Shown here: positions 1 to 21,916 of the stretch, in pieces
How positions within the stretch are numbered: the first letter of the stretch is position 1
How the letters are laid out: each line of letters starts with the position of its first letter
IMG/VR virus record: IMGVR_UViG_3300018420_002346
Location: 1 to 21,916 of that record
Source of the DNA: a virus
DNA: 21,916 bases
Strand: one strand, 5' to 3'
Translations under genes and position numbers: made by a program
Notes under the pieces: generated by a model
Seen by the model: the letters and a program-made list of their open reading frames with translations, nothing else
Database searches by the model: none
What the model was told of the DNA's origin: nothing

Positions 1-14
1 AAGATTGCAATCTT
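1..14. repeat. 14-bp perfect palindrome at window edge
   Basis: The first 14 bases (AAGATTGCAATCTT) equal their own reverse complement, and the last two belong to the stop codon of the amidinotransferase gene on the minus strand. There is no loop and no T-run visible inside the window, so it is not a convincing intrinsic terminator. What lies to the left is unseen. It may be chance in AT-rich DNA. Confidence 0.3.
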
Positions 15-1071
15 AGTCAAAGTAACTCTCCAAGCCACCTTTGCGTTTTACATCTAATGTATTACAGTGAAAGCCGCCGCTCATACTACGAGCTTGACGT
101 GCAGGACACGCTACACTTTCAATGCCATACTTGTCTAATATACGCATTAGTGGTTCTTGGTCTTTGTCAATTACTACACAATTTTCATTAATGCTTAACA
201 AGTTCATACCAATCCACGGACTGCAAGGACTTACACCGTTTGGTAAATTGGCATTTGGTGCAACAAGATCTTCCATACCTACAAAAATCTTATCCCATGA
301 TTCGAATATCTTTGGATAATGATCTGGTGTACAACGTTCTGCATTAAACATAACTAATCCAGGGCGTAAAGGAATAACTGTGCTATCAAAGTGCGCAAAG
401 AAGTAAAAGTCTTCTGCTAGGTGTAACTTATATCCTCTTGGCTCTACAATAGTCTTTAACCATTCGTATCCTAATAACGATCCTGTGTTACTTACTTGAT
501 ATAATAAGTCCTTGCCAAGTCTTACAATGTTTGGAGCCTCCCATACAATTTCATTGTTCTTTACTGTAGGAACACTTAGGTCTTCAAATTGATATAGATC
601 GTCTTTAAGAATAGGAGCAGGACTTTTGATCCATTGTACGCCTTCTTTCATTTGCTGATATAAGTAGTCGTAATATACACGAGTTTCGTATTGTCTTGCC
701 CGCATAGGACTACTACATTCGATAATCATATTATCAAGTGGCAACAATAAATCTCTTGGACAAAAACTATACCATCCTGTTGTTGTCCAGTCAGGCGAAC
801 TAAATTCTACACTGTGATCTGTAGGAGTAGGACGATGCACTTTAATACCTAACTTAGTTAGTGTATCAGATAAAATTTCTAAATCTTCTTCTGCTTCTTC
901 CATGATTTGTTTATCATGTGGACCTTCTAATCCCTTTAGTTCTTCTTCACTGTAGGTTGCGTACGAAAAACTACGAACACTAGGGTCCATAGTAGGAAGC
1001 ACTGCGCCTTTGGCAGTGCCTACAAAGATTTCTTCTAACGGATCCCAGTCATTGTTTGATTGTACTGCCAT
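13..1071 (-). CDS. Glycine/inosamine-type amidinotransferase
   Basis: This 352-residue protein matches the L-arginine:glycine amidinotransferase / StrB family, which moves the amidino group of arginine to an amine acceptor through a cysteine intermediate. Family landmarks are in order: EAPNIVRLGKD (178-188, with the catalytic Asp188), AHFDST (His227 in the HxD position), WIGMNLLSI (286-294) and GGFHCNTLDVKRKG near the C-terminus with the nucleophile at Cys336. The end, LESYFD, resembles the end of human AGAT, so the gene looks full length. All three catalytic positions are present. The ATG is preceded by GGGAG seven bases upstream, and the start overlaps the aminotransferase gene by 23 nt, so the two are probably co-translated. 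The acceptor cannot be read from sequence: glycine, another amino acid or an aminocyclitol are all possible. Confidence 0.9.
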   Translation of the reverse strand: MAVQSNNDWDPLEEIFVGTAKGAVLPTMDPSVRSFSYATYSEEELKGLEGPHDKQIMEEAEEDLEILSDTLTKLGIKVHRPTPTDHSVEFSSPDWTTTGWYSFCPRDLLLPLDNMIIECSSPMRARQYETRVYYDYLYQQMKEGVQWIKSPAPILKDDLYQFEDLSVPTVKNNEIVWEAPNIVRLGKDLLYQVSNTGSLLGYEWLKTIVEPRGYKLHLAEDFYFFAHFDSTVIPLRPGLVMFNAERCTPDHYPKIFESWDKIFVGMEDLVAPNANLPNGVSPCSPWIGMNLLSINENCVVIDKDQEPLMRILDKYGIESVACPARQARSMSGGFHCNTLDVKRKGGLESYFD

Positions 1072-1951
1072 CTAAAACTCCCTTATTTAAATAATTATGA
1101 AAACTAAGCCTATTAGTATTACTGCCACGATTATAATCAATCCATTCATCGCCGCCTATACCAAAAAGAACAGTTGCACTAGGCTTAGTGTTTGTAATTT
1201 TACAAAACTTTATTTGTGTTGTTCTATATTTGTTTACTATATAATCCGAACTAAAATTATTAATCAATTCTAATCCTAGTATTGCTCCAAGTCTATTTTG
1301 ATAATTTGCCTTTTCATAAACAAACAAAGTATCATCGTCATCTTCTTTTGTTAACCGCATACCAATACGTGCGTGTGCTACTGGAAATGTTTTACTTAAA
1401 CTAAATGTAATATCAGTTATACACTTATGATTAAAATCAAAATCTAGTTCCGAACTTATTGTATAGTATGCACAATCTATTAGTACAGGTATGTTTAATG
1501 CACTACAATTATGTAAGATAAAATCCATTTGTTCGTGTTTGTTACCTGTATCAGCAAACGGATAACTTATAATTACAGCATCATTGCCATCTAACTTTCC
1601 GTCTTCAATATAGTCCCAATTTAATTTACTATTTCGCCAAGCTAACTGATGATACAAATATTCTGATTTAAAAATCCTAAATCTTCTATTAAGATTTTTC
1701 ATATAAAATTTATCAAATGCTTCGCTTGTACCATGTGAATACACAGCATATTTAAAATTATCTAATCCTGTTGTATTGTGAGGATGTTGTTTAATCCAAT
1801 CTAAATATGTTTGACAAAACTCTTTATTAATATCAATATTAGAAAATTGATCTAAGCTGATATTCTGCATGGCATTTAATACATTGGCATCATTTACTGC
1901 GGCTGAGTGACCAAACGGTAAATGCTTATTGTCATATTGATACTTACTCAT
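1049..1951 (-). CDS. PLP-dependent aminotransferase, fold type I, compact
   Basis: This 300-residue protein has the marks of a class I/II aminotransferase. SHGTSEAFDKFY (72-83) fits the phosphate-binding turn, VLIDCAYY (156-163) supplies the Asp159 that pairs with the pyridine nitrogen, and FSLSKTFPVAHARIG (183-197) is the Schiff-base motif with Lys187 and the following Arg195. NRLSF near 280-284 places an Arg where the substrate carboxylate is usually held. At 300 residues it is well below the usual 380-420, so the small domain is reduced. It overlaps the upstream oxygenase gene by 8 nt and the downstream amidinotransferase by 23 nt. A plausible order is amine installation followed by amidination, as in aminocyclitol pathways, but that order is inference. 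The Shine-Dalgarno site is weak, consistent with translational coupling. Confidence 0.8.
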   Translation of the reverse strand: MSKYQYDNKHLPFGHSAAVNDANVLNAMQNISLDQFSNIDINKEFCQTYLDWIKQHPHNTTGLDNFKYAVYSHGTSEAFDKFYMKNLNRRFRIFKSEYLYHQLAWRNSKLNWDYIEDGKLDGNDAVIISYPFADTGNKHEQMDFILHNCSALNIPVLIDCAYYTISSELDFDFNHKCITDITFSLSKTFPVAHARIGMRLTKEDDDDTLFVYEKANYQNRLGAILGLELINNFSSDYIVNKYRTTQIKFCKITNTKPSATVLFGIGGDEWIDYNRGSNTNRLSFHNYLNKGVLDGSTIKQ

Positions 1952-2462
1952 TATCTAACCACGTAATTTGCATAACTATAAAATCTGTAAAACTAAAATT
2001 ACTAACTCCGTGCCATGTATATGCACTCCAACTATATATATCACCTACACTCCATTGTGTGTTAGCCTCTTGGTCAATTTGCATTACTTGACCTTTATCC
2101 CAAGGCGTAAGCATAACAACAGTTCTGTTTATATTTTCTGCTTGCTGTTCTGTAATATTATTATACCGTACAAAGGTAGAATAGCTATCGTAATGCATCC
2201 AAAGATTATATCCTGGAGTTAGCTTTAAAAAGTTATAATGATGGATTTTATTTTCAAACGGTGTTAGATACCTTTTTAATTCATCGTCGATTTTAGGATT
2301 AAGCGCCATATAATGCTTAGAACATTCCTTTGGCATACCGAGCTTACGATATTGATCTTCTAACGCTAATTTTTTAGTTGTAGCAAAGTTATCCCATATA
2401 TCAGTATGCGGAACTTCATCTATCATATATGTTTCTAACCATTCAAACTGATCTGTGTTCAT
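1944..2462 (-). CDS. 2OG-Fe(II) oxygenase-like protein lacking the usual 2OG arginine
   Basis: This 172-residue double-stranded beta-helix protein is of the small phage 2OG-Fe(II) oxygenase type. The segment LTPGYNLWMHYDSYSTF (81-97) carries the HxD iron motif (His90, Asp92), GDIYSWSAYTWHGVSNF (140-156) carries the distal His151, and the strand ending in IVMQITW follows. In the paralogue starting at 4234 an Arg lies 10 residues after the distal His; here that position is Phe161 and no basic residue is nearby. Either 2OG is anchored from another strand (Arg113 is a candidate) or the enzyme uses no 2OG. AGGA lies seven bases before the ATG. The gene overlaps the GT-like C-terminal reading frame by 20 nt upstream and the aminotransferase by 8 nt downstream. 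Confidence 0.72.
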   Translation of the reverse strand: MNTDQFEWLETYMIDEVPHTDIWDNFATTKKLALEDQYRKLGMPKECSKHYMALNPKIDDELKRYLTPFENKIHHYNFLKLTPGYNLWMHYDSYSTFVRYNNITEQQAENINRTVVMLTPWDKGQVMQIDQEANTQWSVGDIYSWSAYTWHGVSNFSFTDFIVMQITWLDNE

Positions 2463-2805
2463 TTGCTAGTCCTTTAACTATTTCTTTGTTATGCCATAAA
2501 ATAGGCTGCATTGACTTTAATATAGACTCAAGTGTATTGTAATCTAGCGAATTAATGTAATCTAAAGTTTTAAATATTTTTTTTAAACGTTGTTCATGAT
2601 CAATTTCGTCATCATAGCTTTCGTCCCAAAATTTTTCAAATGTCTTAAACCCTTTACTTTTTAATAACTTTAATGTGTTAGGTGGTCCAACAATAACAAA
2701 CGGTGTTGAATTCCATATAGGTATTATAATTTTTTCACTAAAATAACTAGTAGGATCTAAAAAACCTGATTCACATACTACTGCACAAAATACATCAGTA
2801 AACAT
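2443..2805 (-). CDS. C-terminal part of GT-like phage protein, after an in-frame stop
   Basis: The 120 residues match the C-terminal domain of a family I know only as conserved phage proteins with a faint glycosyltransferase (fucosyltransferase-like) signature. CAVVCESGF (7-15) is followed by FSEKIIIPIWNSTPFVIVGP (22-41, the SEK...PI...G pattern), then GFKTFEKFWDESYDDEID. Relatives are single proteins with an N-terminal half like the reading frame just upstream, which is in the same frame and ends in TAA five codons before this ATG. The ATG has no proper ribosome site: only GTGAG directly against it. This is therefore probably the distal half of one gene broken by a nonsense codon, or a product of readthrough or reinitiation. 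A separately expressed domain is possible but less likely. Confidence 0.6.
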   Translation of the reverse strand: MFTDVFCAVVCESGFLDPTSYFSEKIIIPIWNSTPFVIVGPPNTLKLLKSKGFKTFEKFWDESYDDEIDHEQRLKKIFKTLDYINSLDYNTLESILKSMQPILWHNKEIVKGLANEHRSV

Positions 2806-2820
2806 CTCACGCTTAATTTA
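2806..2820 (-). other. In-frame TAA junction between two halves of a GT-like gene
   Basis: On the minus strand the upstream frame reads ...SLVPN, then TAA at 2820-2818, then codons for I-K-R-E, then the ATG of the downstream frame. Both reading frames start at coordinates that are multiples of three, so only this stop codon separates them. Converting it to a sense codon would give a protein of about 433 residues. Confidence 0.75.
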
Positions 2821-3744
2821 ATTAGGAACAAGGCTTACACTAGGAATTTCTAATCTGTCAGTTATCTTTCCGTATACAGTTGAAGGATTACATTTTATTG
2901 TGTCTATTTGTAAGGGAGACATTTCGTCTAATTTCTTTTGTCCTGTAATTATTGATTTTCTTAATTTAGTATCCCAATTATTAATATTAAACCATATTGC
3001 ATTTTTAAAATTCTTAGGTGACATTTTATAGTGCCAACTAATTTTAGAATCAAAATTTATTAAGTACGAAGCAATTATATGCCTATATGGTTCATATCGC
3101 CAGTTAGTATTAATAAATTTATATTTTAATTTATTTTTTCTAAAAGTTCCTTGATTTCTTGTTATTTTAATAATTCTATCTTGTGTATCAATATCGTAAT
3201 ATTTGAATTTTATATTAGTATATCTTGATGAAAACTTTTCTAAATTTAATTCTGGGGAGCATACTGTTACATTAGTCAGTTTATTATTTTCAATTAAATC
3301 CTGTACACTATCTAATTGAAATGATCTTGACCCATTTGAAAATTTTCCTTTTAATAATCCTTCGTTATTTTCTAACAATATTAAATCTTGCTTGAGATTA
3401 TTTCTATTTAATTTAGTTCGTGATCCTGTATATTTAAGAATATTTTCAGTTAGATAAACAGTTAGTCCTACCTTATTAAGCAAATCAATAGTATCATTAT
3501 TGTAACGAATACTATCCATTTGAGGACACTCAAGTGTATCGTTAAATATCATAAATGGCGTTTCGTTGTGATCTAGTATTGTTAAATAATCCTTAAAAGA
3601 TTGTATCGGCGAAGTATAAAATGACGGATCACTATATTTAAAATCTTTATCACTTATGCCTTCTTCTAACAAGTATTCTATATTATTAACATCAATTATT
3701 TTATAACTTGAAATATGTTCTAATAATAACGGGCCATTATACAT
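2818..3744 (-). CDS. N-terminal part of GT-like conserved phage protein
   Basis: This 308-residue protein has no clear signal peptide or membrane segment. The recognisable element is YKFINTNWRYEPYRHIIASY near 205-225, which corresponds to the N-R-x-x-x-x-HR signature seen in phage GT-like proteins whose C-terminal half carries the SEK...PI...G motif. That half lies immediately downstream in the same frame beyond a TAA. The N-terminal 190 residues are lysine/asparagine rich and unrecognised. The ATG has GGAG six bases upstream and overlaps the oxygenase gene before it by 8 nt. DNA here is the most AT-rich of the window: 9 G/C in the 60 bases from 3121. A sugar- or surface-modifying role is only inferred. 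Confidence 0.6.
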   Translation of the reverse strand: MYNGPLLLEHISSYKIIDVNNIEYLLEEGISDKDFKYSDPSFYTSPIQSFKDYLTILDHNETPFMIFNDTLECPQMDSIRYNNDTIDLLNKVGLTVYLTENILKYTGSRTKLNRNNLKQDLILLENNEGLLKGKFSNGSRSFQLDSVQDLIENNKLTNVTVCSPELNLEKFSSRYTNIKFKYYDIDTQDRIIKITRNQGTFRKNKLKYKFINTNWRYEPYRHIIASYLINFDSKISWHYKMSPKNFKNAIWFNINNWDTKLRKSIITGQKKLDEMSPLQIDTIKCNPSTVYGKITDRLEIPSVSLVPN

Positions 3745-4234
3745 CTACAACTCCAGTAACTTGTATAGTGTATCTATTTTTATTTCCAACATTAACTGCA
3801 CTATGTAAGGTTGTTCCTGACCATCCTACTATGTCGCCAGCTTTCCAATTAGAATAAACTGTACTACCTACTGTTAAAAGATGACCTTGTTCCCAATCTT
3901 CAGCAAATATTACGTAACGCTTTATAAGATTTAAGTCTAAAACATTGTGCGCTTTTGAATAGTATCCGTATTTGTCTTGATGTGGTGGCAGATAGTGCCC
4001 AGGTGTTAGGCAATGAAAACATACTCCTATATGTTCTAGGTCTACAAAATGTTTTGATACAGTATCAATTATGTGTGTTTCGTCCTTAATAGGGCATATG
4101 CCAATTGTAGTATTATCGATATTATGTCCTATGCGTTTCCAAGCAGAGAGCTGCTCTTTATCTCTAAAATACTCTTGGGTATACGATAAAGTTTTATAGT
4201 AATTAGACCAAAAAGGACGAATCGATTTCTTCAT
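3737..4234 (-). CDS. 2OG-Fe(II) oxygenase, small phage type
   Basis: I place the start at the ATG at 4234, giving 165 residues. A longer frame would run across the divergent promoter into the opposite gene. CLTPGHYLPPHQDKYG contains the HxD iron motif (His85, Asp87), AGDIVGWSGTTLHSAVN contains the distal His144, and NKNRYTIQ puts Arg154 ten residues later for 2-oxoglutarate. All cofactor residues are present. The closest architecture in the window is the protein starting at 2462. The substrate is unknown. It is the first gene of the minus-strand block, lies directly against a late-type promoter and has no Shine-Dalgarno sequence. Confidence 0.8.
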   Translation of the reverse strand: MKKSIRPFWSNYYKTLSYTQEYFRDKEQLSAWKRIGHNIDNTTIGICPIKDETHIIDTVSKHFVDLEHIGVCFHCLTPGHYLPPHQDKYGYYSKAHNVLDLNLIKRYVIFAEDWEQGHLLTVGSTVYSNWKAGDIVGWSGTTLHSAVNVGNKNRYTIQVTGVVDV

Positions 4235-4247
4235 ATTAATATTTATA
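4235..4247 (-). promoter_or_regulatory. T4-type late promoter for the minus-strand block
   Basis: The minus strand reads TATAAATA (4247-4240), an exact match to the T4 late-promoter -10 element, followed by TTAAT and then the ATG at 4234. In T4 the element covers about -13 to -6, which puts +1 on the A of the start codon. The match is exact, but the region is AT-rich, so function is inferred. Confidence 0.6.
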
Positions 4248-4260
4248 TACGCACTTAACG

Positions 4261-4273
4261 AATAAATATTAAT
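4261..4273 (+). promoter_or_regulatory. Late-type promoter for the plus-strand block
   Basis: The plus strand reads AATAAATA (4261-4268), fitting the NATAAATA late motif of T4-like marine phages, followed by TTAAT and the ATG at 4274. Geometry is identical to the opposite-strand promoter. There is no Shine-Dalgarno sequence. Confidence 0.55.
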
Positions 4274-4942
4274 ATGATTACGCGAACTAAACATATTGTA
4301 GATCTTGCTCTCATAGAAGAAGCAGCACAATCATTCAAAACTAATGATTTTAAAACTACACTAAACGAGCCATCTGGATCATTCTTCTATGACGGATGGA
4401 GAATTAAGGAAGAGTATAAAAATACAATATGGGAAAAACTGCTTACTACACTTGCTGTTAGTAATCACGGCGAAGCAAGAGTGATAAAGTTAGACATAGA
4501 ACGTTGTTACACTGCACACGCTGATATAGATGATAGGTGGCATTTATCATTAGATCGAGGAAAGCACTTCTTAGTAGATTTAGATACTTTAGAGTTACAT
4601 TCTACTAAATTAGGATATTGGTATAATATGGATACTAGTATTTTGCATAGTGCTGTAAACTTTGGCGATAATCCTCGTTATCAATTAGTTGTTAGACAAC
4701 TGTTAAATAATGCTAAAATTTTAGATAGTAGTAAGGTACAAATTATAGTCAAAGGCGAACATAGTAGATATAAATTTGATAGTACATTAAGTCCTTGGCT
4801 TAATAGAGCTAACAAGAATAGTAGATTAAATTCATTTACAGTTAATGACAATGTTGTAGAGTTTAACATACCAACAGACGATATCGAAATATTGCAGCAG
4901 GTTGTGCCTAAAGAATTCGAGTTTACACATGTCAGAAACTAA
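4274..4942 (+). CDS. 2OG-Fe(II) oxygenase-like protein with C-terminal extension
   Basis: The 222-residue protein has a complete set of iron and 2OG ligands. CYTAHADIDDRWHLSLD gives the HxD motif (His82, Asp84), MDTSILHSAVNFGDNPRYQL gives the distal His125 and Arg135 ten residues later. The -LHSAVN- stretch is the same as in the oxygenase transcribed divergently from the shared promoter, so the pair are paralogues. The order of motifs also resembles aspartyl/asparaginyl beta-hydroxylase-like proteins. Residues 145-222 are an extra region with no family I recognise. It is the first gene of the plus-strand block and overlaps the kinase-like gene by 14 nt. Confidence 0.75.
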   Translation: MITRTKHIVDLALIEEAAQSFKTNDFKTTLNEPSGSFFYDGWRIKEEYKNTIWEKLLTTLAVSNHGEARVIKLDIERCYTAHADIDDRWHLSLDRGKHFLVDLDTLELHSTKLGYWYNMDTSILHSAVNFGDNPRYQLVVRQLLNNAKILDSSKVQIIVKGEHSRYKFDSTLSPWLNRANKNSRLNSFTVNDNVVEFNIPTDDIEILQQVVPKEFEFTHVRN

Positions 4943-5498
4943 TTTAAAACCATTCTTTAAATTTGCAAACGGATATGCGTGTCAAGCTACTCCGTTGTAT
5001 GATGGTAGCTATGATAATACCGTTTTTGTAATGTCTTACAAAGACCAATACTGGTTTGATTTAGAAGTTAGAGGAATTAAATTACTAGAAGGCAAATCTT
5101 ATTCTCCCGAAATAATAGATGTTGACCCTGTACAAAAGAAAATAACATTTAAATGGTATGATACTAATTTAAATCATATGTTGCATTATAACAAACCTTT
5201 ACCTAAAGATTGGATTATTCAAATAAAAGAAATATTAGAAGATTTAGAAAACTCAAATATTTTTAAACTAAACATCTATCCGCACACCTTTTATTTAAAA
5301 AATGATAAAGTATGTGTAATGGATTTATACGCTTGTCTATTAATTGAAGATAAGATTACTAGCGAAGTATTAGAAGGCGTAATAAACAATAAAAGTAGGT
5401 TTCCTATAAAAGACAATATACTTGATATTAAATATGCATACGACTATACAATAACAAACAACATAGGCGAATGGCCAGGAGATTTTTTAAATGCTTAA
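4929..5498 (+). CDS. Degenerate kinase-like (phosphotransferase-fold) protein
   Basis: The start is placed at the ATG at 4929 (189 residues). The upstream in-frame alternative is a TTG inside the previous gene. The pattern is that of a small kinase fold: FDLEVRGIKLL (43-53) fits the alpha-C helix with its Glu, ITFKWYD (72-78) fits the hinge strand, NIYPHTFYL (115-123) stands where kinases have the catalytic loop (D-x-H-P-x-N in aminoglycoside-phosphotransferase types), and VCVMDLY (128-134) fits the metal-binding Asp132. The catalytic Asp and the metal-binding Asn positions read Asn115 and Thr120, so phosphotransfer is doubtful. The same family appears at 7359. Kinase relationship is inferred from pattern only. 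Confidence 0.5.
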   Translation: MSETNLKPFFKFANGYACQATPLYDGSYDNTVFVMSYKDQYWFDLEVRGIKLLEGKSYSPEIIDVDPVQKKITFKWYDTNLNHMLHYNKPLPKDWIIQIKEILEDLENSNIFKLNIYPHTFYLKNDKVCVMDLYACLLIEDKITSEVLEGVINNKSRFPIKDNILDIKYAYDYTITNNIGEWPGDFLNA

Positions 5499-6039
5499 CT
5501 TTATCGGAAATTGTAATAATATTATTTGTTGGAACGATGTTATTAAAAGTGTAGACCAAGCAACTCCTGCATATGTCGGGCCGCGACACGATGTCGGACA
5601 CGAAGTAGAAGGCGTTGACGAAGTTGCAAAACCAATTAGAGATGCTGGATATAAATTCAAAGCCGAAGGTGGTAATGCTAGTTGGGAAATGCATTTTCCA
5701 GGTAAACAATTTTCAGCTGATGTAGTTGACACGTTTATGGAGTTTGTCGGAATGGACAGTTATATAAACTGCTGGATTAGTAAAATATATCCTGGTGATG
5801 TTGCTCCATGGCACTGGGACATAACCGACGACGAAAACACATTAAATGCAAAAGGTGATTTAAAACGATTTCATTGTCATATAGATATTCCTAGGCCTGG
5901 GCATATCTTTATCATTGATAGTACTTGTTTATACAACGAACAACAAGGAAATGTATATCAATGGCCAGATAGAAAGAGTTGGCACGCTGGTGCAAATGCA
6001 GGACTAACGCCAAAGTATCTATTTAACATCTGGGGGTAA
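5491..6039 (+). CDS. 2OG-Fe(II) oxygenase with lysine in the 2OG position
   Basis: The 182-residue protein carries APWHWDITDDE (HxD: His108, Asp110), a jelly-roll core RFHCHIDIPRPGHIF (126-140), and RKSWHAGANAGLTPKYLFNI (161-180) with the distal His165 and Lys175 exactly ten residues later. Some 2OG oxygenases, such as FIH and JmjC proteins, use lysine rather than arginine to bind 2-oxoglutarate, so activity is plausible. A good AGGAG lies nine bases before the ATG, and the gene overlaps its predecessor by 8 nt. It differs enough from the divergent pair that it probably has another substrate. Confidence 0.78.
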   Translation: MLNFIGNCNNIICWNDVIKSVDQATPAYVGPRHDVGHEVEGVDEVAKPIRDAGYKFKAEGGNASWEMHFPGKQFSADVVDTFMEFVGMDSYINCWISKIYPGDVAPWHWDITDDENTLNAKGDLKRFHCHIDIPRPGHIFIIDSTCLYNEQQGNVYQWPDRKSWHAGANAGLTPKYLFNIWG

Positions 6040-6040
6040 A

Positions 6041-6556
6041 ATGAAAATTATCTTAACAGGAGCATCAAACAATATTGGTAATATGTTATTAACGCATTAT
6101 AGTTCACTGTATGATGTTATACCTATAAGTAGAAAGCACAACTGGGATTTATCAATAGAAGCAAAACAACAAGAATTAGTTGAGTTAACTAAAACAGCAG
6201 ATGTGTTATTAAATGTCGGTCACTTAAATTTCTTTCAAGGAATTTTATTAGAAAAAAGTAATGCAAAAATTAATATAAGTTTTAGTAGTTTACTTACAAA
6301 ATTTAATTGGAGCATAATTAAGAATTTTGATAGCCCTACTTATTTGGCTGAAAAGTTATTCTTAGAACATGTACACAACGAATTAAAAAATAGTGCATTA
6401 ATTAGGATTTCTAAATACGGAAAAGGAGGTATACCTAGTATACTTGACGAACAACTAATTAGTGCAATTGACGATGTAATTGAAGGTAGAAGTATACTGC
6501 CTACATGTATTGATATTAGTAATGGGGCAGGTGCTCTATCTCAAGTGCTTTCTTAA
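6041..6556 (+). CDS. Short NAD(P)-dependent SDR-type reductase
   Basis: The 171-residue protein opens with MKIILTGASNNIG, the TGxxxxIG dinucleotide-binding turn of short-chain dehydrogenases. INISFSSLL (78-85) supplies the catalytic Ser region and TYLAEKLF (100-107) is the YxxxK motif (Tyr101, Lys105). Usual SDRs have 230-250 residues; here the loops between the Rossmann strands and the C-terminal substrate lid are shortened. The core catalytic residues are retained. GGGGG lies four bases before the ATG, one base after the oxygenase stop. The 3' end overlaps the convergent oxygenase gene by 41 nt. Carbonyl reduction of a sugar or aldehyde intermediate is likely but unproven. Confidence 0.7.
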   Translation: MKIILTGASNNIGNMLLTHYSSLYDVIPISRKHNWDLSIEAKQQELVELTKTADVLLNVGHLNFFQGILLEKSNAKINISFSSLLTKFNWSIIKNFDSPTYLAEKLFLEHVHNELKNSALIRISKYGKGGIPSILDEQLISAIDDVIEGRSILPTCIDISNGAGALSQVLS

Positions 6557-7331
6557 ACGATTCTGAAAATTTACAATCAATACGTAGACCGTACTCTACT
6601 TCTGTACTATTTTCGCCGCCATGCCAATCTTGATCATTCCAAAACGCTGCATTACAATTTAGATAATGCTTGTTTTCGCTTTCAGGATCCCATATATAGA
6701 ATCCACGTTTAGTACGATAACGTATGTGTATAAATTCATTGTTATGCGGACTGTATTGCTTATCATCATGTACGCCATTGTTTGCATCTAAATCTCTATG
6801 TTCAAATGCTCTACCATTGTGATCACAATGAAAAAATATAACTCTACCTATACGATCAATGATTCCGTCTGTTTGTAATCCTTCAACCCAATCAACTACT
6901 CCTGGGAAGAACTTTGACTCTTCTGTTTTTTGACGTTCTGCATTACGTTCATTCCAATCGCCTTCATTCCATAAGAAGTAATAAACGTAAGGATCGTCTG
7001 CACCTAGTGTAGTTTTAAGATAACGAGTAAAAATGTTACGTTGTTTATAATCACCAAAGTCTGTTGGTAGTATTTTATTACCTTCTACTTTAATACGATG
7101 ATCTTCTGGCAGTGCCTGATAATCATTCCACGCCTGATAGATTGGCTTCCAGTTCATAATATAACTAGAATCTTTCCATTCAAAGCCAGGTGCCATCCAC
7201 GTACCTTCTTTGGCGTAATCTCTAGCGCAAGCGAATCCCCTTGCTATTTCAGGATGCAAGAGTTTAAACTTGCTCACAGGCAAGTATGGATCTAAGTTAA
7301 TATAGGGCTTTCCGCCAATTCCTCGTATCAT
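6516..7331 (-). CDS. 2OG-Fe(II) oxygenase, long form
   Basis: The start is placed at the ATG at 7331 (271 residues). The longer frame would add a hydrophobic leader encoded inside the divergent kinase-like gene and is probably spurious. FEHRDLD (176-182) carries the HxD motif (His178, Asp180), FIHIRYRTKRGFYIWDPESE (200-219) is the core beta-strand pair, and NDQDWHGGENSTEVEYGLRI carries the distal His237 with Arg250 thirteen residues later. The N-terminal 160 residues form an extra domain rich in Trp and Tyr. It is the only minus-strand gene between two plus-strand blocks, so it is probably transcribed alone. Its 3' end overlaps the SDR gene tail-to-tail. Confidence 0.75.
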   Translation of the reverse strand: MIRGIGGKPYINLDPYLPVSKFKLLHPEIARGFACARDYAKEGTWMAPGFEWKDSSYIMNWKPIYQAWNDYQALPEDHRIKVEGNKILPTDFGDYKQRNIFTRYLKTTLGADDPYVYYFLWNEGDWNERNAERQKTEESKFFPGVVDWVEGLQTDGIIDRIGRVIFFHCDHNGRAFEHRDLDANNGVHDDKQYSPHNNEFIHIRYRTKRGFYIWDPESENKHYLNCNAAFWNDQDWHGGENSTEVEYGLRIDCKFSESFKKALEIEHLPHY

Positions 7332-7358
7332 GTAAGTACTTATCAGGTAAGTACAAGT
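7332..7358. promoter_or_regulatory. 27-bp divergent gap with palindrome and direct repeat
   Basis: Between two divergent ATGs the gap contains the 10-bp palindrome TAAGTACTTA (7333-7342) and two direct copies of GTAAGTAC (7332-7339 and 7347-7354). No late motif or good sigma-70 pair is present: the best minus-strand -10 is GATAAG with no matching -35. It could be an operator or chance. Confidence 0.3.
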
Positions 7359-12353: not shown

Positions 12354-12376
12354 TGTATCTATTCTAATTATTTCTT

Positions 12377-15355: not shown

Positions 15356-16334
15356 TCTTTACCTTTGGTATTTTGCTGTCTGCACTACTAACACAACTTG
15401 ACGTAATACACTTACGTGGTGCTTTAAACAGCTCAAATCCGCCGTCTAACGTGCCTAAGGGTTCATCATGGCAACTATAGCTGCGCTTAACTTCGTTCTC
15501 TCTTATAACGCATCCTTGATATCCTGCATTACAAGTCCAACCTTCAAACTTATTAAATCCAAACGCATTAAAGCGTTCTGCCTGATCTAACTCGTACTCT
15601 TTTCCGTCTTTGTCATAGAGGGCGATTTGTGCAATTTGCTCTCCTTGCCATTGCTGTGGGAATCCTTGCTGCATTCTTGCCACTTGTTCTTTTGAATATC
15701 CATGTACCACGTAACTGGCGGTAGGATCGGACTGTGGCTTAAGAGTGACATTGATACCTCTGGCGGCAAATCGTTCCAAGCGTTCGTAAAGGTCTTCAAA
15801 CATTTCCGGAACCATAACTTGATTAATTGTAACATGGGTTCCTCCTTTCATTAGTTGGAGACATTTATCTCCAAATTCTTGTTCATTAGCAAATTCTGCG
15901 TGATAGCTAGCAGTAATGCTTCTACGCTGTAATTTACTTGTTGCGTCTAACCACCTGTTCCACCATTTACTGCCCGGACTAAGATTTGTGGTCATATGTA
16001 TACTTTGGTACTCGGGTGCTGTATCGCTACAGTAATGATCTATGATCTCCCCAAAGTATTTATAAGCAGTAGGTTCGCCTCCACTAAAAGAGAAGTGAAA
16101 ATCAGTGAAGTTATTTGCACGAGCCTGTGCTTTGATACTATCCATGGCCTTTAAGTAAATTTCTAGATTTTGGTGGTCAGGGGTACTAGATCTAGCGTAT
16201 GGCCAGCAATAAGAGCAGTTATAATTACAAAATCTAGCCAGGATCCACGAAACTGTGAAAAGATGGCTCTTTAGGAGAGTCTTCTGGCCAAACTCAGTAA
16301 TATTATCCCACGGTATGTTTTGAAAATTGTTCAT
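15348..16334 (-). CDS. Radical SAM enzyme, GWxC C-terminal type
   Basis: The ATG at 16334 gives 328 residues. RFCNYNCSYCWPYARS (Cys36, 40, 43) is the cluster motif, FSGGEP (83-88) binds SAM, and ITASYHAEF (140-148) resembles the barrel strand LFSYHHKEV of the protein at 11403. The end has FEGWTCNAG (Cys268), Cys275, Cys288 and the pair Cys309/Cys314, so the cluster spacing differs from its two paralogues, and the final CxC is absent. The local DNA is less AT-rich than its surroundings: 29 G/C in the 60 bases from 15601. The gene overlaps the glycosyltransferase by 32 nt. Confidence 0.87.
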   Translation of the reverse strand: MNNFQNIPWDNITEFGQKTLLKSHLFTVSWILARFCNYNCSYCWPYARSSTPDHQNLEIYLKAMDSIKAQARANNFTDFHFSFSGGEPTAYKYFGEIIDHYCSDTAPEYQSIHMTTNLSPGSKWWNRWLDATSKLQRRSITASYHAEFANEQEFGDKCLQLMKGGTHVTINQVMVPEMFEDLYERLERFAARGINVTLKPQSDPTASYVVHGYSKEQVARMQQGFPQQWQGEQIAQIALYDKDGKEYELDQAERFNAFGFNKFEGWTCNAGYQGCVIRENEVKRSYSCHDEPLGTLDGGFELFKAPRKCITSSCVSSADSKIPKVKNV

Positions 16335-16980
16335 GCAACCAATCAAAGTCGTTTATTAAGAAAATATCACTGCTGCTAGAAAAGCCAAACTCCATGCCAG
16401 CCCTAGCACCTGCCACTGCATATTCACCAAATGGTCTATCGTGTCCCACGGTTGTCCAAGTTTTAAGTCTTTCATTTGTCTCTTCCTCGTTTTGTCTGTC
16501 AATTGTTTTACTTGCTAATTTAGCACATTCTCTAAATGCACTTTTCCAAGTATTAAAAGGATCTACATTAAATGATGTAATATTAGATACTTCTGGCATT
16601 GCCTTAAAATACTGGCTAATACTTGTAGTCATATCAGTCTTTGTTAAATCCATCTCTAATGTAAGTTTTCTAGGAAGTAATTTTACACCACCGTACCCAT
16701 ACACTAAATCATTAACAGGATTTTTACTGCGCCATACATGCACAGTTTCTAAATCATAATCGTCTACTTTATGAGTAAAATTAAATTCTTCTAATACCGT
16801 TGCATCAGCATCAACTACCCAAAACATTTTAGTAAAACATTTTTTAGCTGCGGCAATGTGTGCTTGATGTATTCCTTTTACACCGTCTACACGCTTTGCT
16901 CTAGGAAATCGTGCTTTTAAATTTTGCCAATTATTTTCTGCTTCTGGTTCATTGTAACTTATAAAGACAATATCATACAT
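16303..16980 (-). CDS. GT-A fold glycosyltransferase-like protein
   Basis: The 225-residue protein starts MYDIVFISYNEPEAENNW, a first beta strand and loop as in family 2-like transferases. KRVDGVKGIHQAH (29-41) is a typical second element of phage GT-A proteins, and MFWVVDADATV (52-62) holds the DxD-like motif (Asp57, Asp59) for metal and sugar nucleotide. GHDRPFGEYAVAGARAG near the C-terminus is likely the acceptor-side helix. The sugar donor cannot be told. It is the first gene downstream of the strong promoter at 16987-17015 and has no Shine-Dalgarno sequence. It heads an operon of four radical SAM enzymes and a methyltransferase, which points to a sugar-containing substrate. Confidence 0.7.
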   Translation of the reverse strand: MYDIVFISYNEPEAENNWQNLKARFPRAKRVDGVKGIHQAHIAAAKKCFTKMFWVVDADATVLEEFNFTHKVDDYDLETVHVWRSKNPVNDLVYGYGGVKLLPRKLTLEMDLTKTDMTTSISQYFKAMPEVSNITSFNVDPFNTWKSAFRECAKLASKTIDRQNEEETNERLKTWTTVGHDRPFGEYAVAGARAGMEFGFSSSSDIFLINDFDWLHEQFSKHTVG

Positions 16981-16986
16981 GTTATT

Positions 16987-17015
16987 ATTATACTACTTTT
17001 AAAATTATTTGTCAA
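16987..17015 (-). promoter_or_regulatory. Perfect-consensus sigma-70 promoter
   Basis: The minus strand reads TTGACA (17015-17010), 17 bases, then TATAAT (16992-16987): both hexamers and the spacer are the textbook optimum. Six bases later is the ATG at 16980, so the predicted +1 is the A of the start codon. The -35 box contains the TGA stop of the upstream gene. Confidence 0.8.
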
Positions 17016-17977
17016 CTAAAATCTTTTAGACTAAAGTTTGTACCTAGCATATGATAAGGAGTTGCTGTTTTATCATTTGACCAAACAAGTACTTCCGGAT
17101 CGTCATAAAGAAAATCGCAATTCTTACAATAGTCTATACTATCAAAATCTTTCATTTCGTGTGCTTTACGAAGTTTGTTATATTCGTCTCCGTACCATAT
17201 TTCTTCTATGGTTTGATTTTGCACATGTCCTAGCACACTTTTGCTTTCGTTAGGAGGACCCATTGTTTGACAGCAAGGCGTAACTGCACCTTTTAATCCT
17301 CCGTTACCTCCACTACGTATTGTAATTTCAGGAGCAAACGGGCGGCCGCAAGTTCTGCGTTTGCTAGGATCACGTAAATATAAAGGCTGATAGTTTCCGC
17401 TCCAGTTATGCATTTTCCATATGTAGCCTATGCTACCAGTAGGACCAATAAAATTATTTCTGTATTGTTCTACTTCATAGTCTACTTGATTGTTATCAAG
17501 TATTAAATGATAACTGCTTATTACACAATTACTGTTAGATTCTTTGATGTATTCTTTTGCTTTTATTACATTAGTTTTAAGAAGTTCAAAGTTATCTACT
17601 GCCATCCATTCTTTATACTTTTCTTTGTTATACCCTATACAACTAAATCTAGCAAAACTTAGGCCTGCATCAACACAATCTTGCATGAAGTGCCCACTAA
17701 AGAAACTACCATTACTATACATAAAACTAGGAAAGCCTCGCTTAGTGCATTGTTCGATATATAAAGGCAGGTCTTTTGCCATAGTAGGTTCCCCTGATCC
17801 TTCAAGGTTGATTACTGGCTTGCCTGGTAGTTGATCTAATATGTTAATAAACATATCTAAAGGCATTTTGCGTGTCCAGTCTTTACCCCTGCCGGTAGTT
17901 TGTGGACACATTTGACATTTATAATTGCAGCCGCCAAACACTTCTACTACTGCACGTTCTAAATTAGGTACGCTCAA
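17012..17977 (-). CDS. Radical SAM/SPASM enzyme
   Basis: The 321-residue protein has EVFGGCNYKCQMCPQ (Cys17, 21, 24), then NLEGSGEPTMAKD (58-70), with GSGEP in the SAM-binding position. The C-terminal SPASM set is RTCGRPF (Cys210), AVTPCCQT (Cys235-236), the LGHV...TIEEIW element usual before the last cysteines, and YCKNCDF (Cys284, 287). The start codon is TTG: there is no ATG before the cluster motif, and GGAG lies six bases upstream. It overlaps the upstream gene by 14 nt, and its stop lies within the next promoter. SPASM enzymes commonly modify peptides or sugars; the substrate is not known. Confidence 0.87.
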   Translation of the reverse strand: MSVPNLERAVVEVFGGCNYKCQMCPQTTGRGKDWTRKMPLDMFINILDQLPGKPVINLEGSGEPTMAKDLPLYIEQCTKRGFPSFMYSNGSFFSGHFMQDCVDAGLSFARFSCIGYNKEKYKEWMAVDNFELLKTNVIKAKEYIKESNSNCVISSYHLILDNNQVDYEVEQYRNNFIGPTGSIGYIWKMHNWSGNYQPLYLRDPSKRRTCGRPFAPEITIRSGGNGGLKGAVTPCCQTMGPPNESKSVLGHVQNQTIEEIWYGDEYNKLRKAHEMKDFDSIDYCKNCDFLYDDPEVLVWSNDKTATPYHMLGTNFSLKDFS

Positions 17978-18770
17978 TTTTTACTCCGTAATTGTTAAAT
18001 GTATCAAAGCTAGGTACTAGACATAATGCTTGAATCTGTTGCTTTAAACTTGTTGAATCTTTTATAGTAATATTAATAGTATTTCTATACTTTCTAGGAA
18101 CAGTGTATCCAAACTCAGTTAAATCAAAATTAGCAACTAGGTTAGTTTTTGCAAAAAACTTTTTTAATTTTAAATAATATCGATGTACTTCATTAATAAT
18201 AGTATCATTTTTATTAAAATGTACATGGGGTATAAGACTGCCTTGGTCTGCTACTACGCACAAGTACATTTCATATTGCTTAAAATAACTTTTAAGTTCA
18301 GTATAATTTAAAAATACTCTATCGAAATTTAATTCGATTCCTCCTGTGTTAAATGCTAAAATTTCCAAAGGTCCTGTATGAAATAAATCTATAATTTTTT
18401 GTCGAGAGCCGCCTGGATGTATTACCCATTTGTTTTCTCTAATATCCCAATGCACTCCTAACGGGTTTTTGAAAGACTGATTTGTAATATAATCCTTTGT
18501 TAACCATACTAATTTACAATAGTTCTCAATAGGAACTTTATATTCGCTTTTGTATTGTTCAAAATTATCTACAGAAATATTATCCCAATTAATACTAGTA
18601 AACAGTCCGATTGTTAGAAATTCTTTAATTTCATTCTTAATATTTCCTACTGTATCATACGATAGCATATCTTTATTAACTGTTGCTAACCCTAAATATT
18701 CATTTTGATGCTTGTAGTTAAAAAACAATCTTTCATGTGAGTCTGAATTTGGAAGATGTTTAATAATCAT
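17964..18770 (-). CDS. Unrecognised protein with ParB-like HPGGSR motif
   Basis: I start it at the ATG at 18770, which makes an ATGA junction with the upstream stop (268 residues); ATGs at 18782 and 18791 are alternatives. I do not recognise the family. NPLGVHWDIRENKWVIHPGG followed by SRQKIIDLF (about 102-130) has the look of the ParB/sulfiredoxin-like nucleotide-binding pattern (V-x-PG-x-x-R), but this is a weak likeness. The middle is rich in aromatic residues, and the end has no cysteine motif. There is no signal peptide or clear membrane segment. It lies between another unknown protein and a radical SAM gene with overlaps on both sides, so a shared pathway is likely. Confidence 0.6.
   Translation of the reverse strand: MIIKHLPNSDSHERLFFNYKHQNEYLGLATVNKDMLSYDTVGNIKNEIKEFLTIGLFTSINWDNISVDNFEQYKSEYKVPIENYCKLVWLTKDYITNQSFKNPLGVHWDIRENKWVIHPGGSRQKIIDLFHTGPLEILAFNTGGIELNFDRVFLNYTELKSYFKQYEMYLCVVADQGSLIPHVHFNKNDTIINEVHRYYLKLKKFFAKTNLVANFDLTEFGYTVPRKYRNTINITIKDSTSLKQQIQALCLVPSFDTFNNYGVKIERT
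17978..17987 (-). promoter_or_regulatory. Ribosome binding site fixing a TTG start
   Basis: GGAG on the minus strand (17987-17984) is six bases before TTG at 17977. No ATG exists upstream of the cysteine motif, so this site decides the start. Confidence 0.65.
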
Positions 18771-19735
18771 GCTTGGCCCCATTTGCTCCACATATCTGTT
18801 AGTAACTTAATATAGGATGCGTCTGCATGTCTAAAGTCATACTCTATACGTTTTTTATTAAATTCAATGCTGTAAAAATCTGTATATTCTTTAAAAAAAT
18901 CGATAGCTTCGTTAAATGGCATATTTTGTATTCGGCCAACAGGTGCATAACCTAATGCAAGTTGTTCATCTTTAGGATCTACTCCTTTAGACTCTAACCA
19001 AGTTGTAAACTTATCATCAGATGGTAATTCGTATCCTGTACCAAAGTAACAATTAAACTCTCCACTAATCACACGATGTTCTGATATGCCGTCTGCTGTT
19101 ACTACATCGTCATTGTCTAGATATGCTTCATACCAAGTTTTACCAGTTTGTGCATAATGCAAATATACTAATCCGTCATCAACTTCTTTAACAAAGTCTT
19201 TTTTAAACGCCGGGTCTAATTCTATACGCTCAGTTACTCCAAGTAAGTTATAATAAAAGTAACCATTTGTATACCCGTCATCTCGAATGTTTTCAGTTTC
19301 GTACCATGCTTCTAATTCATGGCAGCAATGATTTAAATAACAAATAGCAAGTCTAGTATCGCCGTTAGCAGTTGTTAATTCACTACCTGGATTCCATAAT
19401 TGTCCTTGCATTACTTCAAAATGATGATGTAAAATATTTAATAATTCTTGATCATACCTAGTGCGAAGAGGTCCAAAATTTTCTACTATTTTATACTTAC
19501 TATAATAGTTAATTGTTGCAATACTTCTATCAAGGTCATTGCAAATATGATCTACAGTTCTATAGTTATTATGAAATCCTAATAGGCTAAAATTCTTTTG
19601 AAATATTTTTCGATTATGTGTTGCTAGCAGATAGTCAAGTTGACTTAACCAGACGTTTGCTACTTCACTGTTGTCTGGTTTTATATTAATATATTTAATA
19701 TCATTATTTGTATTTCTAAACCCAAGCTCTATCAT
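18767..19735 (-). CDS. Unrecognised conserved-looking protein, 322 residues
   Basis: I do not recognise this protein. It starts MIELGFRNTNNDIKYINIKP, and the ATG has AGG six bases upstream. Residues about 95-145 look helical with clustered histidines (LLNILHHHFEVMQGQ and LNHCCHELEAW) that might bind metal, as in four-helix carboxylate/histidine proteins, but no ExxH pair is clear. WNPGSELTTANGD lies between these helices. The second half has aromatic and acidic stretches. No transmembrane segment is apparent. It overlaps the SGNH gene by 20 nt and meets the next gene in an ATGA junction, so its product is probably needed at a similar level to that partner. Confidence 0.6.
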   Translation of the reverse strand: MIELGFRNTNNDIKYINIKPDNSEVANVWLSQLDYLLATHNRKIFQKNFSLLGFHNNYRTVDHICNDLDRSIATINYYSKYKIVENFGPLRTRYDQELLNILHHHFEVMQGQLWNPGSELTTANGDTRLAICYLNHCCHELEAWYETENIRDDGYTNGYFYYNLLGVTERIELDPAFKKDFVKEVDDGLVYLHYAQTGKTWYEAYLDNDDVVTADGISEHRVISGEFNCYFGTGYELPSDDKFTTWLESKGVDPKDEQLALGYAPVGRIQNMPFNEAIDFFKEYTDFYSIEFNKKRIEYDFRHADASYIKLLTDMWSKWGQA

Positions 19736-20543
19736 TAAATGCCTTTATAACTTGCTCTGCATGTGCTGCTTGAGACTTTGGTCCAGGGTGCATTTTATCT
19801 CTTGCACATTTATCATCAATATTAGGAAAAGGATTAACTGTATGGTTAGGAAACATTAATTTGCATAATTCATTTAATGGATGATCCCATGATGATAATA
19901 CTATCTTTATATTGTTTGCTTTTGCTATGTCGCTTATCCAATTAACATATGTTATTGCTTGATTAATAAAAAAATCTTCATCAACAGATGTAAACAGTTG
20001 ATTTAATTTTTCATAATCATGATGAGGCCAATACGGAATAATATTAATTATTTCCCCTTGAGGAGTTAAATGCATTTGACGCGACCAAGCAGGTAATGTA
20101 AATACTGCATAGTCAAAATCAATTACTTGAGCTGCTGCTGCAAATGTTCTTACAGTTCTTTCTAATCCTGCGCCACCCATTCCTACATTTATAGGATTCA
20201 TGTCTAATGCTTCGCTAATAATATTAACAAACATATCGTCATTATGAATACCTTCACCGAATGTAAAGCTGCAACCAAAAAAACCAATTGTTTCTTTTTT
20301 AGAGTTTAAGTCCCATTCGTTCCTAAAGTTGTATTCATTAATGTAATACTTCCAATCTGTTTTAGGATCTAACAATTCTTCTTCCGCTTGATTACATGCT
20401 AATAATTCAAACCCTTGTTTAACAAAAGAAAGTTTTTGTTTAAACACTTGATGTGTTTTGCCGAATACACGGAGGTCACTAACTGACTTTATATTAGAAG
20501 GTGAAGTTCTAAGATATGGTACAAAGTCAGTTCCTCTAGCCAT
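19716..20543 (-). CDS. SGNH/GDSL-type hydrolase
   Basis: The 275-residue protein has IGFFGCSFTFGEGI (86-99), SGNH block I with nucleophile Ser92, VGMGGAGLERT (120-130) as block II, and DKMHPGPKSQAAHAEQVI (249-266) as block V with the catalytic Asp249/His252 pair (DxxHPG). AVFTLPAWSR stands where block III (GxND) should be, without an evident Asn. These enzymes remove or add acyl groups on sugars or lipids. There is no signal peptide, so it works in the cytoplasm or on virion components. GGAG seven bases before the ATG supports the start. It overlaps the N-twitch radical SAM gene by 8 nt. Confidence 0.75.
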   Translation of the reverse strand: MARGTDFVPYLRTSPSNIKSVSDLRVFGKTHQVFKQKLSFVKQGFELLACNQAEEELLDPKTDWKYYINEYNFRNEWDLNSKKETIGFFGCSFTFGEGIHNDDMFVNIISEALDMNPINVGMGGAGLERTVRTFAAAAQVIDFDYAVFTLPAWSRQMHLTPQGEIINIIPYWPHHDYEKLNQLFTSVDEDFFINQAITYVNWISDIAKANNIKIVLSSWDHPLNELCKLMFPNHTVNPFPNIDDKCARDKMHPGPKSQAAHAEQVIKAFNDRAWV

Positions 20544-21801
20544 TGTTTAACTCCGGATTTAATTTGAATACATCTGTATCGCGAATGTCATCAATTTGTT
20601 TTGATTTCCATTTAAACTGTTTCCATAAATGACTATTATCATGTTGGTACATAAAGTCTATAATGTTCTGCCAACCACTAAACGGTATGCCTGTATCAGC
20701 TTCTAACTTCTTACCATACTTTGTTATTTTATCTGCTGCTTGTTCTTTTAATAATTCTGGCAACACTGTAATACTGTAGTAATCAGGTGTAAACAACGGA
20801 TTTAAATGAAACCTATCTACCCAATAATTTTCCATGTAAAACCCTCGTCGAGGATGTACGCTTTCTAATGGCATTAAATCGTTCTTATGCAATTCTGCGT
20901 GTAACTCTGTAAGTCTAAATATATTAAGGATACTAACAGTTGGATGAAACCAGTAGTCTACTACACCGCTAGATCTAATCTTTTTAAGGTTTTCTAAAGT
21001 ACTATCCCATTTTCCTTTATATCTAATATGTTCAAACGCATCTCCGGCACCATCAATGCTTATACTTAAATGAACATAATTAAATTTCTTCCAGTAATCT
21101 AAGATATTCTCTTTTCCTTTACCTAATGTGGTACCGTTTGTACTATAGCGTAAATCAATATCATACTTTTCTTTTTCATCAAGCATTTTAAGAATACGCC
21201 AATGCTCGGGCATAATCAAAGGTTCACCGCCTGCAAAGTGTATTTCTTTCATTGTTTCAAGATTTTCTTCAATGTCTTCCCAGAATACGTTTGCTTCTTT
21301 TAGATCAATAAGTTTTGTGTCACTGTACTTGTCTGCACCAGGATGTAGCTTTTGAAAATCGTTTGCCCATTGTGTACTGAACAGAGGCGAGCACGTTGTA
21401 CATGCAAGATTGCAGTAATTACTAAAACGGAAGTCCCAATACTTTAATTGTAATTCTGGTATACTGCCATCGTCTGCTGTGCTAGCAATTAGATCTTTAG
21501 TTTCATCAAACCACTTACTGTTTAACCCAGTTCGCATTGTGTTTAAATTGTTCTGCTGTTTTGATACACAACGTTCACACGCACTAGGCAATGGCTTACC
21601 GTCTAGCATATCTTTACGCATCTTCTTTGCTCGATCGCTATTAACTACGTCAATTAGTTTTTGATGCTTAACATTACCAAAGCTATTTTCTTCACGCAAA
21701 GGAGTCTGACAACACGCAAACGATCTGCCATCGTTAATAACATGCAAGTGCATCCAAGGCGCTACGCAAAATTCGGGACTATTTTTTAAATCATCATTCA
21801 T
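20536..21801 (-). CDS. Radical SAM enzyme with N-terminal twitch domain
   Basis: The 421-residue protein has a reduced front domain: EFCVAPWMHLHV with a single Cys12 where its two paralogues have CxxC, then FACCQT (Cys30-31) and SACERCVSKQ (Cys75, 78). SNYCNLACTTCSPLFSTQW (Cys130, 134, 137) is the SAM cluster motif, and FAGGEP (189-194) follows. The C-terminal region contains SGWQNIIDFMYQHDNSHLWK, which parallels RQWQGLLNYMDSKDSTHLLP of the protein at 12377. The ATG has GAG seven bases upstream. It overlaps the cut upstream gene by 8 nt and the SGNH gene by 8 nt. Confidence 0.9.
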   Translation of the reverse strand: MNDDLKNSPEFCVAPWMHLHVINDGRSFACCQTPLREENSFGNVKHQKLIDVVNSDRAKKMRKDMLDGKPLPSACERCVSKQQNNLNTMRTGLNSKWFDETKDLIASTADDGSIPELQLKYWDFRFSNYCNLACTTCSPLFSTQWANDFQKLHPGADKYSDTKLIDLKEANVFWEDIEENLETMKEIHFAGGEPLIMPEHWRILKMLDEKEKYDIDLRYSTNGTTLGKGKENILDYWKKFNYVHLSISIDGAGDAFEHIRYKGKWDSTLENLKKIRSSGVVDYWFHPTVSILNIFRLTELHAELHKNDLMPLESVHPRRGFYMENYWVDRFHLNPLFTPDYYSITVLPELLKEQAADKITKYGKKLEADTGIPFSGWQNIIDFMYQHDNSHLWKQFKWKSKQIDDIRDTDVFKLNPELNNG

Positions 21802-21916
21802 ATTTCATCTCACTAAAAAGTTTTTCAAACTTACGTTGATGTTTCATATTAAAAAACTTTTGCTTGTTTCTATCCATAAACGGAATCAATTCTTCTACTT
21901 TATCTTTTATTTCTTG
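21794..21916 (-). CDS. C-terminal fragment of an unknown gene, cut by window end
   Basis: The minus-strand frame is open from the window edge to TGA at 21796-21794 and encodes 40 residues, beginning QEIKDKVEELIPFMDRN and ending EKLFSEMKYE. The residues are highly charged and helical in character. It overlaps the next gene's start by 8 nt in the way all neighbours here do, which supports a real coding end. No function can be told from the fragment. Confidence 0.55.
   Translation of the reverse strand, partial: QEIKDKVEELIPFMDRNKQKFFNMKHQRKFEKLFSEMKYE

Follow-up and report, generated by a model that had tools for sequence, protein, structure and literature searches.

The 21,916-nucleotide viral contig IMGVR_UViG_3300018420_002346 (IMG/VR), analysed here over its whole length and hereafter called the window, carries an enzyme-dense island encoding radical S-adenosylmethionine (SAM) proteins, 2-oxoglutarate (2OG) oxygenases, a pyridoxal phosphate (PLP) aminotransferase and a StrB1-type amidinotransferase (AMT). 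This observation, made in a preliminary description of the DNA, was confirmed, whereas the biosynthetic interpretation given there was supported in part. The island is a larger, oxygenase-rich version of a known type of phage module, and its defined core turns up repeatedly among aquatic viral contigs. We tentatively propose, with confidence a little short of even, that the window represents the interior of a biosynthetic island that undergoes recombination and is located in the host-recognition region of large aquatic phages of the T4 superfamily. According to this proposal, the island would make a cytoplasmic, heavily tailored guanidino glycan, most likely attached to a neighbouring virion adhesin or tail-fibre protein.

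Core enzymes of the island

The best-defined enzyme of the window is the AMT (13..1071, − strand; 352 aa; dN/dS 0.03). A profile of 13 phage AMTs matched StrB1 (1bwd), an inosamine-phosphate amidinotransferase, at E = 1.8e-105 over 348 residues, and matched AGAT, HsvA and SxtG at 1e-77 to 1e-82. Judged by these profile scores, the AMT is nearer to the aminocyclitol enzyme StrB1 than to AGAT. Its PF02274 match was under the cut-off. Cys336, His227 and Asp229 are invariant in the alignment. The position of the catalytic Asp is taken by Glu178 in the clade to which the window belongs, whereas the remaining viral AMTs have Asp there. The PLP enzyme (1049..1951, −), a short fold-type I aminotransferase of 300 aa, matched PF00155 at 6e-4, just under the Pfam cut-off, and its own profile matched HisC at 1.1e-4, with the catalytic Asp159 and Lys187 invariant. 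Its matches are thus to Aminotran_1_2/HisC, not to the DegT-type cyclitol aminotransferases of the streptidine pathway. Both enzymes had been named correctly in the preliminary description.

All eight proposed radical SAM proteins were borne out, with PF04055 above its curated cut-off in 8/8 and the CxxxCxxC motif intact in 8/8; the positions first quoted for the motifs are the lower ends of the open reading frames (ORFs) rather than motif sites. Three are full-length N-terminal-twitch members of NF033640, which has a curated cut-off of 170 bits: RS1 (9202..10524, +; 327 bits, 1.3e-97), RS4 (12377..13837, −; 379 bits, 3e-113) and RS8 (20536..21801, −; 372 bits, 4e-111; PF04055 1.4e-15). The other five scored below that cut-off. 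These are RS2 (10517..11419, +; PF04055 6e-15), RS3 (11403..12419, −; 2e-12), RS6 (15348..16346, −; 8e-12) and two radical SAM/SPASM proteins, RS5 (14369..15355, −; PF04055 and PF13186 above cut-off) and RS7 (17012..17977, −; PF04055 1e-11, PF13186 5e-11; dN/dS 0.04). Two more N-terminal-twitch-like radical SAM genes lie just past the window's right end, at L009:5864-8678 on an overlapping contig, and the island of this phage therefore holds at least ten radical SAM genes.

Five 2OG oxygenases had also been listed. One of them, OX2 (3737..4330, −), scored above the PF05118 cut-off (7.8e-7). OX1 (1944..2462, −; E = 0.014, HxD motif) and OX3 (4274..4942, +; 0.0016, HxD/E motifs) gave sub-threshold matches to the same family and, like OX2, resemble Asp/Arg hydroxylases. 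OX4 (5491..6039, +) and OX5 (6516..7511, −) were recognized by HxD/E motifs alone; OX4 has homologues of 77-84% identity in the same slot, and the core of OX5 is conserved. The annotated start of OX5 is too early (its homologues are ~270 aa), and an apparent transmembrane segment falls within this false extension. Once the extension was removed, no transmembrane protein was found in the window.

A split glycosyltransferase gene was overlooked in the preliminary description. Its N-terminal part, U308 (2818..3744, −), and its C-terminal part, U120 (2443..2805, −), share a frame and are parted by an in-frame TAA at 2820-2818, whereas relatives have one intact ORF of 407-445 aa. The TAA in this gene (2443-3744, −) may reflect either a natural pseudogene or a sequencing error. 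A sequence profile of the family found no match in the PDB, and fold comparison alone succeeded. When an AlphaFold2 model of an intact homologue (pLDDT 64, pTM 0.60) was compared using VIA-align, the top match was T4 beta-glucosyltransferase (Z 11.1, 273 residues aligned), and further GT-B enzymes came next; on the strength of this model, the family is predicted to have a GT-B fold. A second, GT-A-like candidate (16303..16980, −), labelled glycosyltransferase-like from the start, has an invariant DAD motif, and PF00535 (GT2) was matched weakly by 2/12 of its homologues.

Recurrence and genomic setting

The core enzymes recur together. Relatives of the AMT were found on at least 486 viral contigs, and we examined 95 AMT loci, 72 of them with distinct AMTs. 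Within 5 kb of these 72, a PLP enzyme was found at 68/72, an oxygenase at 61/72, a radical SAM gene at 48/72 and a member of the split glycosyltransferase family at 43/72. The triple of PLP enzyme, radical SAM and oxygenase was present at 42/72 within 5 kb and at 48/72 within 8 kb. These counts are lower bounds because contig ends interrupt loci, and the loci, being interrelated and picked as best matches, are not independent draws. As a control, 80 gp46 loci (841 kb) of the same phage group gave zero matches to any hidden Markov model (HMM) of the island. The co-occurrence that the preliminary description expected was therefore seen, with oxygenase, aminotransferase, amidinotransferase and radical SAM genes together on dozens of viral contigs. 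The recurring core consists of a 2OG oxygenase, the PLP aminotransferase and the AMT, to which a radical SAM and a GT-B-like glycosyltransferase are frequently added; OX1 adjoins the PLP-AMT pair on many contigs.

In the AMT tree, viral AMTs form a single clade (support 99/99) separate from cellular AMTs. This clade comprises several deep lineages whose flanks differ, and in two of them the cassette adjoins genes matching tail-fibre PHROGs. The Campylobacter phage AMTs and that of Synechococcus phage S-SCSM2R sit on long branches, and their placement is uncertain. Island-type neighbours were found in only 2/61 cellular AMT neighbourhoods, a control that is biased because the HMMs were made from viral families. 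The two are L094 (1-12783), filed as a Puniceispirillum metagenome-assembled genome, and L095 (1-3736), filed as Synechococcus lacustris. Both AMTs fall within the viral clade, and both are probably phage contigs inside cellular assemblies.

These data also bear on the idea that the AMT serves host-type creatine/guanidinoacetate metabolism, beside unrelated auxiliary metabolic genes. The creatine-pathway gene GAMT is virus-enriched in an ocean-wide survey (PMC11360552). However, the closer kinship to StrB1 than to AGAT, and the constant company of a PLP enzyme, an oxygenase and radical SAMs, make this reading highly improbable.

The IMG/VR contig, identical with the window, contains 27 ORFs representing 26 genes, as one glycosyltransferase gene is split. 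The ORFs abut or overlap in three strand blocks, and the largest non-coding gap between genes is ~31 bp, in keeping with the dense packing first reported. Every gene tested is under purifying selection (dN/dS 0.03-0.20, with synonymous sites near saturation). A nucleotide search of INPHARED found no match to any known phage. The window lacks phage structural genes; structural-type genes are carried by the overlapping contig L009 (99-100% identical), which adds two radical SAM genes, three glycosyltransferase-like genes and two structural-type proteins. A chimeric assembly, named earlier as a possible refutation, was ruled out: overlap with the window was seen for L009 (right half, 99-100%) and for L033/L049 (left half), and both halves are present on the longer contigs G001 (115 kb) and G005 (79 kb) with order and strands unchanged.

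On longer contigs, the island spans ~30-40 kb and contains 7-16 radical SAM genes. Radical SAM genes were present on 24/24 related contigs, 3 to 13 on each, and three long contigs chosen by gp46 rather than by an island gene had 16, 15 and 9. A linked baseplate wedge gene (phrog_10646, 1.3e-296) is closest to those of Atu_ph07, Phosso, SCTP-2 and PA5oct, jumbo myophages of 284-490 kb. An initial gp23 search found one contig only, because most contigs are partial; T4-type capsids were later confirmed when gp23 was detected on another five contigs, including one of 344 kb, and the wedge gene was found on eight. As judged from these marker genes, the carrier contigs are T4-superfamily jumbo-like myophages related to Atu_ph07 and PA5oct.

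In G001 and G005, gp46/47 and the baseplate genes come first, then a giant structural protein (>5,000 aa) and fibre-type proteins; next lies the island, after which come a fibre-like gene, VWA and finally MoxR. The giant ORF between the baseplate wedge and fibre genes is 5112 aa in G001 (L053:2714-18052) and 5230 aa in G005. Both sister contigs thus have a large variable island with glycosyltransferases among baseplate and tail-fibre genes, and its position is equivalent to that of the host recognition cluster, likewise variable, in pelagimyophages (PMC7029224). The island also behaves like a set of exchangeable cassettes, since equivalent slots are occupied by genes of either 70-94% or 25-55% identity. 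In a sister island, UDP-glucose/GDP-mannose dehydrogenases and an epimerase are encoded.

A proposed guanidinylated glycan

Streptidine is formed by a series of oxidation, transamination and amidination steps. We infer a similar logic for the island. Radical SAM enzymes and 2OG oxygenases would oxidise or hydroxylate sugar-like carbons, and the HisC-like PLP enzyme would convert a keto group to an amine. The StrB1-like enzyme could then amidinate this amine, with arginine as the donor, to place a guanidino group on the sugar-like unit. Methyl- and acyl-type enzymes may add further groups before GT-A- and GT-B-type glycosyltransferases attach the product. The acceptor would most likely be the adjacent adhesin or tail-fibre protein, altering fibre binding.

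A glycan is favoured because of the kinship with StrB1, the predicted GT-B fold, the GT-A-like motif and the nucleotide-sugar genes of the sister island. Two loci elsewhere point the same way: in Campylobacter phage CP220 the AMT adjoins two nucleotide-diphospho-sugar transferases, and in L208 a NolO-like carbamoyltransferase adjoins the core. Since the window encodes no membrane protein, phage-driven export is less likely than an acceptor in the cytoplasm, which could be lipid-linked core sugars or virion proteins not yet assembled. A neighbouring adhesin is preferred as the acceptor because the island is linked to fibre genes. Given the co-occurrence and the rejection of a chimera, the biosynthetic or modification system first suggested is well supported as one that makes a glycan and belongs to a host-recognition region.

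Several points weigh against this proposal. Product, acceptor and activity are all putative, and no enzyme pins the substrate as a sugar. The GT-A call is at the level of a motif, the GT-B model has a pLDDT of 64, and in the window itself the GT-B-like gene is broken by a stop codon. Only 38/85 AMT loci had an anchor of fibre or MoxR/VWA type in the examined flank, and adjacency to fibre genes does not prove fibre modification. Gene content is mosaic, so a single pathway for all genes is unlikely.

The main rival concerns the acceptor. The island might remodel a host surface glycan (lipopolysaccharide core or capsule) during infection, either blocking superinfection or keeping progeny from sticking to debris. 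The pelagimyophage authors interpret their glycosyltransferases in this way (PMC7029224), and nucleotide-sugar enzymes are present. Core oligosaccharide is, moreover, assembled on the cytoplasmic face, so a flippase would be unnecessary. Nevertheless, the window is without a membrane protein, lytic phages are short of time for surface remodelling, and the linkage to fibre genes is compatible with either target. We regard a host-envelope target as unlikely.

Another possibility is that a virion protein or peptide is the direct substrate, its amino-acid side chains being altered by the radical SAM/SPASM and 2OG enzymes, as in ribosomally synthesized and post-translationally modified peptides. 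Peptides are common substrates of SPASM and twitch radical SAM enzymes, the oxygenases are Asp/Arg-hydroxylase-like, and giant structural proteins and fibres are encoded close by. Even so, this appears improbable: the gaps in the window, ~31 bp at most, leave no space for a separate precursor gene, peptide-maturase models scored far under their cut-offs, and an amidinotransferase, an aminotransferase and glycosyltransferases are better suited to sugars.

The QueC-like PP-loop ATP pyrophosphatase (8595..9269, +) raises the question of DNA modification. As described earlier, it is a QueC-like protein, matching phrog_1550 at 5e-7, with an invariant SGGADS motif and C-terminal Cys cluster. In the QueC family PF06508 it scored 18.4 bits against a cut-off of 22, which was reached by the G005 and G009 homologues together with neighbouring stretches; its profile found no match in the PDB. 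In G001, QueE and FolE lie ~10 kb past the island (L056:16613-17485 and 17482-18171), and QueD was found on 5/19 related contigs; for these reasons the QueC-like gene may instead act in 7-deazaguanine DNA modification. The earlier claim that all genes serve one substrate was not supported in that form, given this gene, the mosaic content and the exchange of cassettes among relatives.

Extended to the whole island, this idea would make the bases of phage DNA the target of its enzymes, which would hypermodify them. In other phages, DNA modification does draw on PLP, radical SAM and acyl enzymes, and T4 DNA beta-glucosyltransferase is the top structural match of the split glycosyltransferase. However, the island lies in the fibre region and varies among close relatives, whereas a base modification would be expected to be genome-wide and stable. 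The QueC-like gene is found in few relatives, and a search that was not exhaustive saw no DNA-modification anchors beyond the deazaguanine genes. Base hypermodification therefore seems quite improbable.

The remaining genes of the window are less clearly assigned. A methyltransferase-like protein (13774..14379, −) gave weak matches only (PF13649 E = 0.07; PDB methyltransferase E = 0.44), so the earlier label stands as a weak one. The labels given to three further proteins stand at motif level, without profile support: a GNAT-like protein (8047..8604, +), unconfirmed, with 69-71% identical homologues in L044 and L045 and no Pfam match; a short-chain dehydrogenase/reductase-like Rossmann protein (6041..6556, +) with an N-terminal glycine motif, a homologue at L048:2595-3227 and no Pfam match; and an SGNH-hydrolase-like protein (19716..20543, −) with invariant GxSFTxG and DxxHP motifs. 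Searches of the PDB with the SGNH and methyltransferase profiles returned chance-level matches only.

PHROG and Pfam searches assigned no function to U198, U231, U275 and U322. U198 (4902..5498, +) aligns with the paralogue-like U231 (7359..8054, +); both are suspected to have a kinase-like fold (kinase profile weak for U198, E = 0.03), and U198 probably lacks canonical kinase residues. U275 (17964..18791, −) has homologues in L009, L011, L012 and L027. U322 (18767..19735, −; 322 aa) is highly conserved (57-83% in 11 relatives) and contains LHHHFE and LNHCCHELE blocks that are possibly metal-binding. It matched no known family, and its structure model (pLDDT 63) gave no credible fold match.

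Related modules and implications

The closest published parallel is the module of the Campylobacter phages CP220 and CPt10 (Eucampyvirinae), which was termed interchangeable and in which a putative glycine amidinotransferase accompanies five radical SAM genes (PMC2853527). Like the island, it lies next to tail genes and is swapped between relatives, and in CP220 the AMT, a radical SAM gene and the two sugar transferases stand together. Campylobacter phage WX1 likewise has a class I/II aminotransferase with a BtrN-annotated protein. The CP220/CPt10 module is, however, smaller, has no annotated set of Asp/Arg-hydroxylase-like oxygenases, and has an AMT that is 24-25% identical and does not group with the well-supported marine clade.

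Pelagibacter phage Mosig EXVC030M (PMC7029224) has a large variable island adjoining VrlC and tail fibres. Encoded there are MoaA-like proteins, aminotransferases, Asp/Arg hydroxylases, GNAT, a methyltransferase and a carbamoyltransferase. The phage differs in belonging to Kyanoviridae, in its smaller genome and fewer radical SAM genes, and in having no amidinotransferase annotated in the stretch examined. In Synechococcus phage S-SCSM2R, an AHBA-synthase-type PLP gene, a radical SAM gene, glycosyltransferases, 2OG oxygenases and an annotated inosamine amidinotransferase occur in one run, but the PLP gene is of another family, there is one radical SAM gene, and the AMT, on its long branch, is 34-37% identical. 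Among cellular pathways, the StrB1-dependent streptidine branch of streptomycin biosynthesis shares the AMT family and the order of oxidation, transamination and amidination. It differs in its DegT-type aminotransferase, the island enzyme being HisC-like, and no cyclitol dehydrogenase or kinase was identified in the island.

The baseplate region of Agrobacterium phage Atu_ph07 has an orthologous wedge (38%), a giant structural protein and then three radical SAM genes, but no annotated amidinotransferase, aminotransferase or oxygenase. Vibrio phage K566, with a radical SAM module and some of the partner enzyme genes, is a weaker analogue. These modules are mostly near baseplate or tail genes. 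The term 'uncharacterised' used in the preliminary description is only partly right, because related modules have been described for Campylobacter phages and pelagimyophages, although no product has been shown. We met no earlier account of such an island in the open-access literature; one may exist elsewhere.

Radical SAM arrays in phages have been on record since 2010, in CP220, in a 183-kb T4-like ocean genome with 12 radical SAM genes (PMC5332604) and in pelagimyophage cassettes, and their explanations have never been tested. The island matters because the AMT gene is common in viral metagenomes while its product has never been seen. A core conserved across many viral contigs now suggests what the chemistry might be, namely the placing of a guanidino group on a sugar-like unit that has been aminated. 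This hypothesis is testable in cultured analogues (Mosig, CP220-type phages and S-SCSM2R). It is possible, though rather doubtful, that a widespread class of aquatic phages bears a guanidinylated, natural-product-like glycan on its host-binding apparatus, made by an exchangeable multi-radical-SAM line in the adhesin locus; host range would then be tuned not by protein sequence alone but also by small-molecule chemistry. If virions do bear such groups, this would have a bearing on viral surface chemistry and host range and would point to a source of new enzymes.

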